Positions 5,379 through 19,225 of a stretch of 60,578 nt of DNA are shown here, one piece after another. Within the stretch, counting starts at the first letter, position 1, and each line of letters begins with the position of its first letter. The stretch covers positions 1-60,578 of IMG/VR virus record IMGVR_UViG_3300006735_005646. One strand, 5' to 3'. A program made the translations under genes and the position numbers. Below the pieces are notes generated by a model. That model made no database searches. It worked only from the letters and a program-made list of their open reading frames with translations, and was not told the origin of the DNA. The DNA comes from a virus.

Positions 5379-8300
5379 ATGAAAAAAATTGTTTTTACAT
5401 TCGGTAGATTCAACCCACCTACTACTGGTCATTACCTACTTGCCACTCGCGTGAAAGAAGAGGCGAGAAAAAGGAATGCTGAATATAGGATTTACGGTAG
5501 CAACACCAAAGATCCAAAGAGAAATCCCCTCTCACCAACAAGCAAATCAAAATTCATGAAGAAGGTTCTGAACGATAGAAACGTCGTGGTGAACAAGGAC
5601 TCTGGTAATCCATATGCAGTGCTTCAGAAATTGAGTGCAGAAGGATATAGTGATGTCACTATGGTAGTGGGTTCCGATAGAGTTCCTGAATTCAAAAGAG
5701 GAATCAAGAAGTATATTGGCAAAAAGGGATACGAGAACATCAAAAATTTTGAAGTGGTATCTGCTGGTGATAGAGATCCAGATGCAGAAGGTGTTGAAGG
5801 TATGTCTGCATCTAAGATGAGAGCAGCGGCAGCAGAGGGAAATATAGATGCGTTTCGGTTGGGAGTCCCATCTCATGTGTCAAGTAAAGATGTGATGGAT
5901 TTGTTTTATGCAGTCCGAAGAGGTATGGGTATCCGAGGAAAGATTGAAGAGTCGTGGTTCAACTATGACGAGTTTGCAGAGTTTGTCAATGAACAATCAG
6001 AGTTGAACGAATTAACACTTCAGGCAAGAAGAAAACTTTCTATGCGTATGAAGAAGACTGCAAAGAAACGTGCTAGGGTTAGAAAACTTCGAGAGAAGAG
6101 AAGAAAAACAAAAGTACAATTGGTTGCAAGAGCAAACAAGCAAGCGATTAAGAAAATTCGCTCAAGGTTTCATAAGGGTAGATCATGGTCTGAAGTTTCA
6201 TTCATGGAAAGAGAAAGAATCAGCGAAAAACTAAAAAAGAAGAAGAAAGCAATTCAAAGAATTTCAAAACGACTCATTCCTGCAATGAACAAAGCAGAGA
6301 AGGAAAGACTAGATAAGGTTAGAAAACGAATGACTAGTAAAGATCCTGTAAAAGCAATCGCACCGACTAACGAACACATCGACATCATGTTTGAAGAATA
6401 CTTGGAGGAGATAGCAGTTCCGAGAGCGAGACCTAGAGACAAAGTTTCTAGTAGAGTTGCGGCACAGGATAAGGTAAATAGAGAAAAGCAAAAAGCACAG
6501 GACAGAGGACTGGATGCTAAGAAGGTAGATGCAGCAAGAAAAAGAGGTGAACGAGCAGACGGTAAAACTGATAATCGTTCTGACAAACAGAAAAAGTTTC
6601 CCAACCTACAACCAACCGATCCTGTAGAAATACAAAGAGGAGATGAGGTTGAGATTGTTCTATTCAAAGATGCCAAAATAGATCAAATCAAATCTTCAAA
6701 ACCAGTAAAACCAGGTCAAGCAAAATCAATTTCAAATAAGCCAGGATTTGTTTGTGGTGAAACAGCACAATCATTGGGTGTCAATTGTGACAAGGTTGCA
6801 CAGGCGCAACAGACAGAAAAAGGACAACAGGGACAGCAAGCACCAGAACAGGAAGTAAATCCAGAACTACAAAAGGCGTCCGATGCACAACAAATTGCTC
6901 AGTCAAAACTTAGCACTGCTCAAGCAAATCAACAACTTGCTGACATGGAAGCACAGCAGCAACAACAAAAAGATGCAAGAGAAGCAGAGTTAGCACAAGC
7001 ATACAAAAACCCATATGCGAAACAATTCGGAATTGAAAGCAAACCCCTACCCAAAGGGAAGAAAGATAAACAAAAGGGAGACACATTCCCCTCTTCTGGA
7101 CACAAGGCGGTAGATGCAGAGTTCGCTCTAGTCGCTGCTGCACATGGTTGTCACGATTTGACTGGTAAAAAAATGAAAGCATGTTTAGATGCTGCGGACA
7201 TAAGTGCAGGAGATCAAAAAATATTAGCACAGAGTGTGACACTAACAGGTGCTGGTAGAAGAATGTGGGATACTCTGGGTAAACTTATACCAGAAAACTT
7301 TGAAGCAAAACACTATGGTAAGGGTGGACCTCCTATCACTTTGTCTGACACTTGGCAAAGAAATAAAGCAGGAGATAAAACACCAAAGACTGATTTGTAT
7401 TGGGAAGATAAAAAGACCGGAGAGTCAATAAGAGCATCAATGAAAATTGGTGATGGACAACTCATGTCTGGTGGTGCAGAAGAATCCATGGCAACACTCG
7501 AAACTGCGATGAACCGTATGCGTGGTTGCAAGGGAGTCGATAAAGACGGACAAGGAACTGATTGCAAACGAACTCCAATGTCAGGTGAAGCGAAAGCAAT
7601 AAAAGCGATTCAATCAATCAAAGAGGACATTGCTAAATCATACGACAGAGATAGTCTTGGTGCGGGTATGGGTCCAACGTCATGGTGGTTGGACGGTGGT
7701 GTCGTAAAAACACCAGGCGATAGAGAACCAGATTGGTGGAAGAAGGACGGATCACCAGGCTCCAAGGGTGTCAAGTGGAAAGATGTAGTTGGTAAACCAC
7801 CAAACAAAGCAGACTTTCCAAACTACAATGAAAAGACAATCGATAGATTGAAGAATGCAAACTCTTCTCATAAGAGGATCATGGGTAATATTGAAAATCT
7901 ATTCGAGGAGAGTGAAGAGTTCAAGAGACATGTAATTTACGAATCATTAACTGGTTGTGGTAAATTCTGTGGTTGTTGTGGTCAGGATGTGTGTAATGAT
8001 TGTCAAGAGAAAGCAATGGCGACTCACATGGTTACTGCTGAGAAAGATGGAACAAAGGCAGCACTCACAGAAATCGGTGGACCGAATAGTCCGTTCGTAA
8101 CTAAACTACTGAAGCAAGTGAACGTATCCGTGCGTCTCAAGAGCAGTCAAAAAATATCCAAAGCAACCGGGAAAGAAGGAAACTATAGTTGGTGGTCTGT
8201 TCTTGGACTCACCACAAGTGGCGGATTCATGGGTGAAGAAAATGTACAGGCATTTCTTGAGTTCAATGGTGATACAGAACATCCAAAAAACCAAGTGAAA

Positions 8301-12633: not shown

Positions 12634-13428
12634 ATGGCAAAAACTCCTGCTTATCTTAGAGGTCCAAACGCAGTTGATGTAGAGACAAACCCGAAACCAT
12701 CAACAACTCCAGATCCAGATAATTATCCTCGTATCAACACATGCTGTCCTTGCATGGAATGTTTGGATGACTGTATCAAAGAAAGAGAGAGTGGTGGGGA
12801 AGGTTCTCCTGTTACCAATCCCTCCAACCTTAAACCAGATCCAGATCATACAGGATGTGATGCACCGGCCACTGGATGTGAAACAGGTCTTGGTTGTGAT
12901 TGTGGTCCTTATCAAATAGATCATCAAGACTATGTTCACGATATATGCGGTCCTGTAGGACCATGTTCAAACGGTGATGGTGGTTATGATAATAGTTGTT
13001 GTGAAGTCTGTGCGGATGGATACGGAGAATCATTATGTCAACCATGCGGAAACGATGCGGCGTGTTGTGAAGAGAAAGAAAGAAGAAGTAAAAAATTAAT
13101 GGATTGTTGGAGGAGAAGATACACAAGAAATCCTGCCTGCAAGGGACATGGTCCGATTATACACCCAACCGATCCAGACTCTGGACCTTGTTTTACTTGT
13201 GAAGACATAGCAAGAATGCACAATGGTGGTCCGAAGGGACATTGTAATAAAAACACAGAGGGTTATTGGAATAAAATCAAAGCATGTATGGCAAGGAAGT
13301 GTGGGTTTGCTTCAACAGAATCTGGCGAAGCGTGTGCAGATGTTGAAGTAAATAAGAGCAAACGTACAGAAACAAACCAAACTCGTTATTACGAAAGGTG
13401 GAAGATCATGAATCCAAAAGATCCATGA
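12634..13428 (+). CDS. invertebrate-type (destabilase) lysozyme
   Basis: 264 aa; GGAAGG precedes the ATG. The sequence carries the signature of i-type lysozymes. The CPCMECLDDCIKERESGG stretch (38-55) has E52 in the place of the catalytic Glu. CGPYQI follows at 90-95, then a Cys-rich stretch ending CWRRRYT (158-164), and finally CEDIARMHNGGPKG (189-202) with EGYWNKIKACM (209-219). Family members hydrolyse peptidoglycan and are animal secreted enzymes or bacterial homologues. At least 20 cysteines suggest several disulphides, odd for a cytoplasmically made phage endolysin. No signal peptide is visible. Holin and spanin candidates follow within 900 bases, so an endolysin role is the simplest reading; a virion-bound lysin is the alternative. 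Confidence 0.8.
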   Translation: MAKTPAYLRGPNAVDVETNPKPSTTPDPDNYPRINTCCPCMECLDDCIKERESGGEGSPVTNPSNLKPDPDHTGCDAPATGCETGLGCDCGPYQIDHQDYVHDICGPVGPCSNGDGGYDNSCCEVCADGYGESLCQPCGNDAACCEEKERRSKKLMDCWRRRYTRNPACKGHGPIIHPTDPDSGPCFTCEDIARMHNGGPKGHCNKNTEGYWNKIKACMARKCGFASTESGEACADVEVNKSKRTETNQTRYYERWKIMNPKDP

Positions 13429-15168: not shown

Positions 15169-15297
15169 CTAATTTCCTTGTATAAATTTTACCAATAGTA
15201 TTCCCGCGACGAATGATGCTATCGCTACAATCGCTCCACTTGGAGTTGAAAGTTGATGCACCTTACTATCTATCCATTGTTTCCAGTAATTGTTCAT
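15169..15297 (-). CDS. 42-aa single-span membrane protein
   Basis: ATG at 15297 with GAGGAAA 6 bases upstream, inside the end of the serine protease gene. The product has a polar N-terminus (MNNYWKQWIDSKVHQL) and one hydrophobic helix (GAIVAIASFVAGILLVKF). Overlap with the protease gene suggests translational coupling. Function unknown; a small envelope partner of the protease is one possibility. Confidence 0.5.
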   Translation of the reverse strand: MNNYWKQWIDSKVHQLSTPSGAIVAIASFVAGILLVKFIQGN

Positions 15298-16024
15298 TTT
15301 TTATTTCCTCTATCCAACTTTTATAATATTCAACACTTGCACAAGCGTTCTCAAATATTAGTCCACCAGTCACACTGAAGTTTGCCATGATACCTATGAG
15401 TTTGTTTTCTCTGGTTAGGACTGCACCACCAGAGTCACCGAACCAGATAGATGCCTTTAGTGGGAGCATGACCATGAACTGCGGGTTTGAGATGAGTCTA
15501 CCGTAGTACCAAAAGGTGCCAGAGTTACTGTATCTCTTAATACCATGGCCATGCCCCACTGTAGTAAGAGGCATTCTCTTATAAACTGAGTCGTCAGGTT
15601 CGAGTAATTCTACGGGAGACTCATCTGATGGATGTTCCAAAACTATGATCGCTATATCGTGAAATCCGTAAACGCCGGGAATATGTTCTGTGTAATAAAT
15701 CACCTCCTTGATACAGATTTTATCACCGTCCGTTTCTGTCCAAACCAAATCTTCCTTCCCTTCTGTAACATGTGCAGCAGTAAGAACCAATGTTGGTTCA
15801 ATTAAAACACCAGTACCAATGAGTTTGTTGTTTTCTGAATAGTTAATTGAACCAACAAACTGATATGGATCAGGCCACAAATCTCTGAGGAGATATGTGA
15901 ACGGACCCGGTGGTTTCGGGGTTTCTTTTATTTCTATTTTTTGTGGCGGAGGAGTTATGGTAGTTGCTGTGCAACTTGTTAAACATAGTAAGGACGCTAA
16001 AACATATAAAATTGTCTTTCTCAT
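15266..16024 (-). CDS. lipoprotein trypsin-like serine protease
   Basis: 252 aa. The N-terminus is a lipoprotein signal peptide ending LTSC (Cys 18), followed by a Pro-rich linker (25-41). The chymotrypsin-fold triad is complete: H85 in LTAAHV, D123 in FHDIAIIVL and S198 in FGDSGGAV. The mature enzyme should sit on the periplasmic face of a membrane. Phage-coded exported proteases of this class are unusual; possible roles are degrading host receptor, blocking superinfection, or weakening the envelope at lysis. It is separated from the upstream polyprotein gene by a terminator, so it should have its own promoter, which I could not define. High confidence in fold, low in role. Confidence 0.85.
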   Translation of the reverse strand: MRKTILYVLASLLCLTSCTATTITPPPQKIEIKETPKPPGPFTYLLRDLWPDPYQFVGSINYSENNKLIGTGVLIEPTLVLTAAHVTEGKEDLVWTETDGDKICIKEVIYYTEHIPGVYGFHDIAIIVLEHPSDESPVELLEPDDSVYKRMPLTTVGHGHGIKRYSNSGTFWYYGRLISNPQFMVMLPLKASIWFGDSGGAVLTRENKLIGIMANFSVTGGLIFENACASVEYYKSWIEEIKNEQLLETMDR

Positions 16025-17588: not shown

Positions 17589-17623
17589 AAAAAACAACCC
17601 CCCGTCCGAGGACAGGGGGGTTG
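17589..17623 (-). terminator. Rho-independent terminator of the porin unit
   Basis: Nine-base GC-rich stem (caacccccc with ggggggttg) extended by gtcc/ggac, followed on the minus strand by TTTTTT. A second small hairpin (cggga 17634-17638 with tcccg 17643-17647) sits between it and the porin stop. Confidence 0.9.
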
Positions 17624-17651: not shown

Positions 17652-18830
17652 TCAGAAACTAACGCTAAGTTGTGTTCTGAGTAGATACTGACCATTGGAG
17701 TCGCCTGCATTCCAACCGGAACGATAGAGATTCCATTCAGTACCAATAGCATCGAATGCATAACCAAGAGTAGTAGTCCAACGGACGTACTTATTGATGT
17801 CAACATTCGCACCAACCTCAAGGACGTTTAGATCAGAATCGGAAACACCAAGTTTACCGTACTGATAATTAACGAAACCTGTGAGGTTATCGGTGCATTG
17901 GTATGCAACTTCGGCGTTGAAACCGTAGTTCTTACCATATCCACCTACTGCATAATCAGCAGAAACCCATGAGACTTGTGCATTTAGAGGACCGTTGCTA
18001 TAACCAAAGTCAACGGTATAAGTGCCATAATCTTCGAGTTCTGACTGGTATGCGTATGCGGCTCCCAACTGGAAACCACCACCAAAGTCAACGTCACCAC
18101 GGACGCTGATACCATAATCATTATCTACAATGAATACATTCTCTGTACCGAATCCATCATTGTATGAAACAGAGAGGTCCAACCAGTCAAAGTCCTTGCT
18201 GAACTGGACACCCTGTGATCTTCCTTGACCAAACGTAGTAGCGAGAATGGTGTATTCACCTTCAACATTATCCAATGGTGAATCGGTGAAGTCCTTATAG
18301 AACGCAGTGACAAACTGTCCTGCTTGGAAGTCAACACCCCAACCCAAGTCCATTGTGGTATAGGCGTCAACGAGTTCCATAGTGCCATTTGTATAGTCAC
18401 TAAACTCACCACTTACATAATAACCAATCTTTCCTAGAATCTCACCCGAAACTTCGAGACGAGCATAGGGAATACTGAACTGATTATTTTCAGCGACACC
18501 ACCATCGTTGTTATAACTCCAACGAGTAATGGCAAAACCACCCACGTTAACAGTGACGGGTTGTGCATCCGCCATCATCATTGTGCGTGCATCAGCATCA
18601 GCCATGACATCTTGTACCATAGCCTTTACTTCTTCGCTTCGACGAGTTTCCAACCAACTTGGTTCTTGGTTCGCATCCAATGTTGCGATCTTTGCTTCTG
18701 CTGCATCGAGACGAGCCTGTAGATCCTCATATGAAGGACCGTCAGCAAGTGCAGGTGCAGCGAATGATGCTACAACAATTGCAGCAGCAAGACCACCGTA
18801 CATCATCCACTTTTTCTTTGAAATATTCAT
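17652..18830 (-). CDS. phage-encoded outer-membrane porin
   Basis: 392 aa with the strongest ribosome binding site in the window (AAGGAGGT, 7 bases from the ATG). A signal peptide ends near residue 29 (FAAPALA then DG). A coiled coil follows (DLQARLDAAEAKIATLD), then a WLETRRSEEVKAMVQDVMAD segment, and from about 90 on a 16-strand-type beta barrel with alternating aromatic strands (NNQFSIPYARLEVSGEI, GFVNYQYGKL). It ends in Phe (LSVSF), the usual assembly signal. The architecture fits phosphate-selective OprO/OprP-like porins. The segment after the coiled coil looks like that of planctomycete porins, from memory. It is co-transcribed with the 64-aa gene from a sigma70 promoter and closed by its own terminator. 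A role in nutrient uptake or in changing the host surface is inferred. Confidence 0.85.
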   Translation of the reverse strand: MNISKKKWMMYGGLAAAIVVASFAAPALADGPSYEDLQARLDAAEAKIATLDANQEPSWLETRRSEEVKAMVQDVMADADARTMMMADAQPVTVNVGGFAITRWSYNNDGGVAENNQFSIPYARLEVSGEILGKIGYYVSGEFSDYTNGTMELVDAYTTMDLGWGVDFQAGQFVTAFYKDFTDSPLDNVEGEYTILATTFGQGRSQGVQFSKDFDWLDLSVSYNDGFGTENVFIVDNDYGISVRGDVDFGGGFQLGAAYAYQSELEDYGTYTVDFGYSNGPLNAQVSWVSADYAVGGYGKNYGFNAEVAYQCTDNLTGFVNYQYGKLGVSDSDLNVLEVGANVDINKYVRWTTTLGYAFDAIGTEWNLYRSGWNAGDSNGQYLLRTQLSVSF

Positions 18831-18860
18831 AGGATTACCTCCTTGAATCGAATGAACGAC

Positions 18861-19055
18861 TCAGGTTCCTACTGCGTTTGTTGCAGCGTGCCAAAGAGAC
18901 TGGACTGCATCTGCAACCCAAACAACACCACCCCATGAATATGGAAGAAGTGCAAGAGTGATTAGCATACTACGGCAGATGCCAACCTTACCAAGAGTTT
19001 TTGTAACAACGTCGTTTTCGCATCCCACGACAGGACACTTACTTGTATTAGCCAT
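18861..19055 (-). CDS. 64-aa Cys-containing membrane protein
   Basis: ATG at 19055 follows TAAGGAG. The N-terminal part has three cysteines (CPVVGCEND, GICRSM), followed by a hydrophobic stretch (MLITLALLPYSWGGVVWVADAV). It is the first gene after the consensus promoter and structured leader, 30 bases before the porin, so it is very probably expressed with it. I do not recognise the family. It could help porin delivery or act in the inner membrane. Confidence 0.6.
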   Translation of the reverse strand: MANTSKCPVVGCENDVVTKTLGKVGICRSMLITLALLPYSWGGVVWVADAVQSLWHAATNAVGT

Positions 19056-19080
19056 ATTATTTCTCCTTATAAGAAAATGA

Positions 19081-19156
19081 AACCCCGGCTAAAGGGTTGG
19101 TGCTGAATGCACCATGAGTCAACTCCGACTCAGTAATGTGTCACTTATATAGTGAC
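19081..19156 (-). ncRNA. structured 5' leader: four tandem hairpins
   Basis: Four perfect adjacent stems lie in the untranslated leader of the 64-aa/porin transcript: gtcact/agtgac (19140-19156), tgagtc/gactca (19115-19132), ggtgc/gcacc (19099-19113) and aaccc/gggtt (19081-19098). The promoter lies upstream at 19198-19225 and the ribosome binding site follows at about 19062. No T-run follows any stem, so termination is unlikely. mRNA stabilisation or ligand sensing are possible readings. No known riboswitch was recognised. Confidence 0.6.
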
Positions 19157-19197
19157 TTAGTATTCTCAACAAACCTTGAAGAGATAATTAACCTCCC

Positions 19198-19225
19198 ATT
19201 ATAGTTCTATAACGGGACATGTCAA
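19198..19225 (-). promoter_or_regulatory. consensus sigma70 promoter for the 64-aa/porin unit
   Basis: Minus-strand TTGACA (19225-19220), 16-base spacer, TATAAT (19203-19198): both boxes are perfect consensus. It lies just after the nrdJ stop, so the envelope unit has its own host-type (early) promoter. Confidence 0.85.

Follow-up and report, generated by a model that had tools for sequence, protein, structure and literature searches.

A phage-borne outer-membrane porin with its own promoter, structured leader RNA and small partner gene in a T4-like subclade

The window analysed here is a stretch of 60,578 nt from a virus (IMG/VR record IMGVR_UViG_3300006735_005646, positions 1 to 60,578), and the product of its minus-strand gene at 17652-18830 is an outer-membrane porin: the gene is intact, conserved and far from chance. 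The phage group thus seemingly makes its own porin, as a near-constant part of the genome with its own control region (Table 1). We propose that this region is an early phage operon which would equip the host outer membrane with a general diffusion porin and so maintain the flow of solutes in the infected cell, a reading whose chance we put barely above even.

Table 1. Positions of the porin gene and of the elements around it in the window.
Feature	Position	Strand	Basis or occurrence
392-aa outer-membrane porin ORF	17652..18830	-	Pfam Porin_O_P, AlphaFold2 model m813b67a9ec5a, top folds OprP/OprO
Sec signal peptide, porin residues 1-29	18744..18830	-	sequence; relatives' N-termini mostly similar
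N-terminal coiled-coil helices, residues 34-84	18579..18731	-	absent or shortened in some relatives
Loop L3 (residues 175-203), predicted to constrict the pore; conserved GQGRSQG at its end	18222..18308	-	
Porin ribosome-binding site, AAGGAGGT	18837..18844	-	sequence
Intrinsic terminator closing the operon, strong	17598..17619	-	
64-aa partner protein: N-terminal Cys motif and one hydrophobic helix	18861..19055	-	
Structured 5' leader: four hairpins in succession ahead of the small gene's Shine-Dalgarno	19054..19157	-	
Hairpin H1, loop TAnATAA	19140..19156	-	'ATA' in 45/45
Hairpin H2, GGAG loop	19115..19132	-	
Hairpin H3	19099..19113	-	100% of cells paired
Hairpin H4, GCC loop	19082..19097	-	
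Sigma-70 consensus promoter TTGACA-N16-TATAAT, 12/12	19198..19225	-	

The porin and its predicted channel

The porin begins with a signal peptide that reads as an n-region (MNISKKK), a hydrophobic core and an AxA cleavage motif (A27-L28-A29, followed by D30), and it ends in the strand LLRTQLSVSF. The last residue, F392, is the terminal Phe picked out in the earlier note and is invariant across all 57 aligned relatives. An AlphaFold2 model built from 57 relatives (mean pLDDT 81) has 16 predicted beta strands (residues 92-391) and a long L3, and the alternation of side-chain polarity along the strands was reached by none of 1,000 shuffles. Pfam Porin_O_P (PF07396) matched at E 4e-8 (33.3 bits; cut-off 20.9) over just 71 residues. 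The porin of relative L002 likewise exceeded the cut-off, while relatives L011, L168 and L086 had no Porin_O_P match at E 0.01. Searches with the porin gave nothing significant in PHROGs or NCBIfam and no match among PDB sequences, even using a profile. Purifying selection on the gene is strong (dN 0.012 and dS 0.17 between L002 and L003).

Among solved structures the best folds for the model were, by VIA-align, OprP (2o4v; Z 27.2, 300 residues aligned, 3.5 Å) and OprO (Z 27.2, 308 residues aligned, 5.8 Å); OmpT and many general porins came next, at Z 23-25. The earlier note's identification of a phage-borne outer-membrane porin from signal peptide and barrel strands was thus borne out by family match and fold, and the comparison with OprO/OprP that it had called for put both at the top. 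On the other hand, phosphate specificity, which it had raised as phosphate import, is not supported: i) the Pfam family, called “phosphate-selective porin O and P”, spans many porins with other selectivity, and the match covers only ~70 residues; and ii) acidic residues far outnumber basic ones in the mature protein (19 K+R, 52 D+E). In OprP-type channels an arginine ladder and lysine clusters give phosphate selectivity; by overall composition the window porin has few basic residues.

A broader form of this idea, that the gene is a specific nutrient channel (for phosphate, another anion or a vitamin) gained as an auxiliary metabolic gene, draws on the family name and the two best folds, but the acidic mature protein speaks against it and OmpT, Omp32 and others score within ~3 Z of OprP; we consider it improbable. 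Conservation is higher in L3 (0.71) and L4 (0.80) than in L5-L7 (0.56-0.60), and the basic barrel-wall residues R103, R124, R204, R244, R350 and R385 are retained alongside the acidic L3 residues D187 and E192. Together these suggest that the channel itself is preserved, and in the model the basic wall and acidic L3 look like those of a general diffusion porin.

Porins figure in phage biology mostly as receptors, and in the lambdoid phage PA-2 the Lc porin replaces a host porin used as receptor. By this precedent an early phage porin could serve superinfection exclusion, replacing or crowding out the host porin through which competing or sibling phages enter. The strong early-type promoter and a large glycan-synthesis cluster in the window, which fits surface change, are compatible with such a role, but its benefit would be smaller for a lytic T4-like phage than for a prophage, and a constriction loop conserved above most surface loops would be unneeded for exclusion alone. 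We regard exclusion as the main rival but unlikely, at perhaps one chance in a few, and the conserved L3 and L4, basic wall and acidic L3 residues lead us to favour a solute channel over receptor replacement, and the latter over a specific phosphate channel.

Promoter, leader RNA and partner gene

The promoter is the sole 12/12 sigma-70 match in the window. The consensus promoter of the earlier note thus stands, but it precedes the 64-aa gene and not the porin directly: it starts 170 nt before the 64-aa gene, which ends 30 nt before the porin. Neither this small gene nor the RNA leader had appeared in that note. Among 55 distinct upstream regions of relatives, 24 carry a 12/12 promoter and 41 score at least 11/12 (shuffle mean 8.7). 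The porin's ribosome-binding site is where it had been placed, and AGGAG-type sites precede the porin in most relatives; the dedicated terminator recurs behind the porin at 57 of 68 loci, compared with 3 of 340 shuffled sequences. Comparison with relatives thus upholds the strong early-type expression signals, in promoter and terminator alike. In T4-type phages host sigma-70 promoters act early and TATAAATA-type promoters late, and by analogy with this general biology the operon promoter would act early. A late promoter within the leader was considered and rejected, as its CTAnATAAG loop occurs twice in the window, which is chance expectation and marks no general phage promoter; the TATAAATA sites of the window are located elsewhere.

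Leaders between promoter and small gene are about 60-145 nt long and rich in hairpins. When 21 of them were aligned ignoring structure, the four hairpins gave 92.6% paired cells, and double-change cells numbered 42 versus 12.4 when shuffled. The covariance model R1 had a single match in the window (100 bits), matched only just upstream of the small gene in the loci searched, and was single-copy in the long contigs where it was detected. Across 45 R1 matches, in an alignment which, unlike that of the 21 leaders, was fitted to the model, 18 of 20 pairs changed on both sides and 113 double-change cells were counted versus 31 shuffled (0 of 500 shuffles as high). These alignments point to a structured RNA with compensatory changes in conserved helices. 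In more distant loci the leaders differ, and some look attenuator-like by eye.

The nearest known RNA is the cis-regulatory candidate freshwater-2 (Rfam RF02980), which scored 28.6 bits against the leader, below its cut-off of 49.9 (E 0.012 in a 311-nt search), and had no gathering-level match among 38 related loci searched. All 84 model positions align, and both RNAs have three successive hairpins followed by AAGGAGAAA and AUG, but the phage leader carries an extra upstream hairpin. CsrA-regulated leaders carry GGA motifs in hairpin loops near the Shine-Dalgarno; 24 of the 45 leaders, which are related sequences, have GGA in a hairpin loop versus 3.5 when shuffled, and CsrA is encoded in 12 of 12 planctomycete-type genomes and in 0 of 8 phage records. 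Reading the leader as a CsrA target is a lead, not a demonstration. More speculatively, the leader may be a new phage regulatory RNA class, a sister of the orphan freshwater-2 motif that host CsrA or a metabolite might read. It would control an envelope-remodelling operon which the whole T4-like subclade uses in infecting Planctomycetota, and the 64-aa protein would be a dedicated partner of the porin; we hold this composite picture tentatively and find it doubtful as a whole. The operon also supplies a gene context for an orphan kind of RNA leader.

The 64-aa protein carries two cysteines close to its N-terminus that are invariant and a single hydrophobic stretch, also conserved (R-S-x-L-I-T-L-A-L-x-P...W-x-G-V-x-W), and it matched no family in Pfam, PHROGs or NCBIfam. 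Viral records yielded 69 porin loci including the window, of which 66 were testable in having at least 250 nt upstream; the small gene lies upstream of the porin in all 66 (weakly in L024). The order is reversed in 10 further contigs, with the porin directly before the small gene, and the flipped order falls at two separate places in the porin tree (L127; L124/L131/L168). The pair follows its usual neighbour, a class II RNR, in most contigs and a gp32-like gene, a label read from sequence with no profile hit behind it, in six (L035, L036, L037, L043, L044 and L047). The RNR neighbour would suit a nutrient channel, but the position behind the gp32-like gene implies that the RNR link is not essential. 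Since the adjacency of porin and partner outlasts changes of both order and neighbourhood, it argues for a functional link.

The small gene is also found without a porin, in L128/L129 and in L132-L135, the leader being present too in L132-L135; no porin occurs anywhere in the 118.5-kb contig of L135. Many loci first checked had been taken for further such cases, but 10 of them carry the porin before the small gene instead. Given the porin-less loci, the partner protein may have a job of its own. It could even be the main effector, for example an envelope or lysis-timing factor, with the porin as helper or passenger: leader and small gene persist without porin in L132-L135, and in L164 the porin's position after the small gene is taken by a different secreted protein, of 253 aa and likewise ending in Phe. 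However, wherever the flank is present the porin always comes with the small gene (66/66 and the 10 flipped contigs), and the porin is under strong purifying selection; we rate this alternative as very improbable. The stretch after the small gene in L164 (2819-5945) encodes, besides this 253-aa protein, a second secreted protein of 534 aa and a phage-borne one whose C-terminal domain is of TonB type, and the phage contig L128, which has the small gene and no porin, carries a permuted tmRNA and three tRNA genes (7658-8056).

Phage group, origin and host

The phage has T4-type replication genes by PHROGs (DNA polymerase, DnaB-like helicase, primase and UvsX), and its DNA polymerase is ~53% identical to cyanophage polymerases. 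Scanning IMG/VR with 11 relatives gave 103 related stretches, of which 80 were kept. Starting from the primase, small gene and porin were present in 9/9 loci that combined a primase identity of 57% or more with an RNR and sufficient room, versus 0/7 comparable loci of the sister group (primase identity 53% or less); L222, at 62% primase identity, had neither RNR nor cassette in the stretch examined. Therefore the cassette marks one T4-like subclade. Each long porin-bearing contig has exactly one porin, and searches of 50,697 named phage records and of named plasmid records turned up no porin relative.

A scan across 84,980 species, made without regard to taxonomy, returned 13 cellular relatives, 11 from Planctomycetota (mostly Phycisphaerae) and two from unlabelled bacteria. 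Among Planctomycetota genomes, a phage-only profile matched 33 of 99 (best 211 bits), and a wider profile, which includes three planctomycete sequences, matched 104 of 198 genomes from the class to which the best match belongs. The multi-copy porins of Phycisphaerae are the closest cellular relatives found, with full-length matches and conserved residues such as R103, D155, R204, R244 and D274 in common; they differ in being only ~25% identical and in that the small partner gene was not found in the fetched Phycisphaerae loci. A search for cellular copies of the small protein or the leader RNA in 294 Planctomycetota/150 Phycisphaerae genomes, a weak one with no positive control, found none. 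The viral porins branch together, with full support, in the porin tree and stand apart from the planctomycete porins.

These relationships suggest that the porin was acquired from Phycisphaerae-type hosts, which the phages probably infect. We think a Phycisphaerae-type host link somewhat better than an even bet; the unequal sampling of other phyla, the ~25% identity and the GC gap (35-49% in phage, 53-73% in matched planctomycete loci) weigh against it. The cassette thereby gives a pointer to the host phylum of a T4-like phage group that is uncultivated.

The window also holds, over ~24 kb at 35001-58658(-), many sugar-nucleotide and glycosyltransferase genes, a large glycan pathway for a T4-like phage (GDP-mannose dehydratase, three further epimerases, GT2, GT47, GT10-type fucosyltransferases and a nucleotide-sugar transferase). 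At 15266-16024(-) it encodes a trypsin-like protease with a lipoprotein-type signal (LTSC), whose cluster is found again close to the porin in 32 loci; the theme of envelope change may therefore reach past the operon. A 264-aa cysteine-rich ORF with many CxxC-type motifs lies at 12634-13428(+), and two 136-kb phage contigs carry a glutamine synthetase gene near the cassette (L002:1223-2299, with a Pfam match, and L003:1803-2900).

Proposed function and relation to known systems

In the operon reading that we favour, unmodified host RNA polymerase would transcribe the operon soon after infection, and the leader would tune translation of the small gene and, via coupling, that of the porin. Sec/BAM would export the porin to the outer membrane of the host, where it would form a 16-stranded and probably trimeric general diffusion pore and let small solutes continue to enter during the shut-down of host envelope synthesis; the small membrane-associated protein would work with the porin, e.g. 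in assembly, insertion or gating. Support for this reading comes from the joint conservation of promoter, leader, partner gene and terminator, from fold and export signals, from strong purifying selection and from the presence of the cassette in 9/9 subclade loci. That the phage remodels the host surface, as the earlier note had it, is plausible. The compact, switch-like unit suggests that these marine T4-like viruses routinely re-plumb the surface of infected bacteria, and makes it possible to test if lytic phages preserve outer-membrane permeability in the cells they infect. In Prochlorococcus, phage infection in the dark raised host porin transcripts, which was read as nutrient limitation (PMC5082946).

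The porin shares the 16-stranded fold of Pseudomonas OprP/OprO but is only 17-18% identical to them, overall acidic and encoded by a phage, next to a leader RNA and a partner gene. Porins of uncultured phages in BFVD (A0A8S5S2G8, A0A6J5L4P1 and A0A6J5LP82) have a similar predicted fold (E down to 2.5e-18), at 10-18% identity to the window porin. A literature search that covered few subscription journals found no clade-wide single-copy porin operon with promoter, covarying leader and constant neighbour, and no text on “phage-encoded porin” or freshwater-2. Porin genes on phages are familiar from Lc of phage PA-2 and NmpC of E. coli, which, unlike the window porin, are prophage-borne, enterobacterial and OmpC-type; for neither do we know of a comparable leader RNA or partner gene. 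Marine virus contigs encode the porin OmpL beside glnK-amtB, with a promoter before the cassette and a terminator within it (PMC8115048), but that is a nitrogen cassette on few contigs, with genes traced to Bacteroidetes. Phage-borne porins are thus known, while the regulated, partnered and clade-wide form described here appears to be new.
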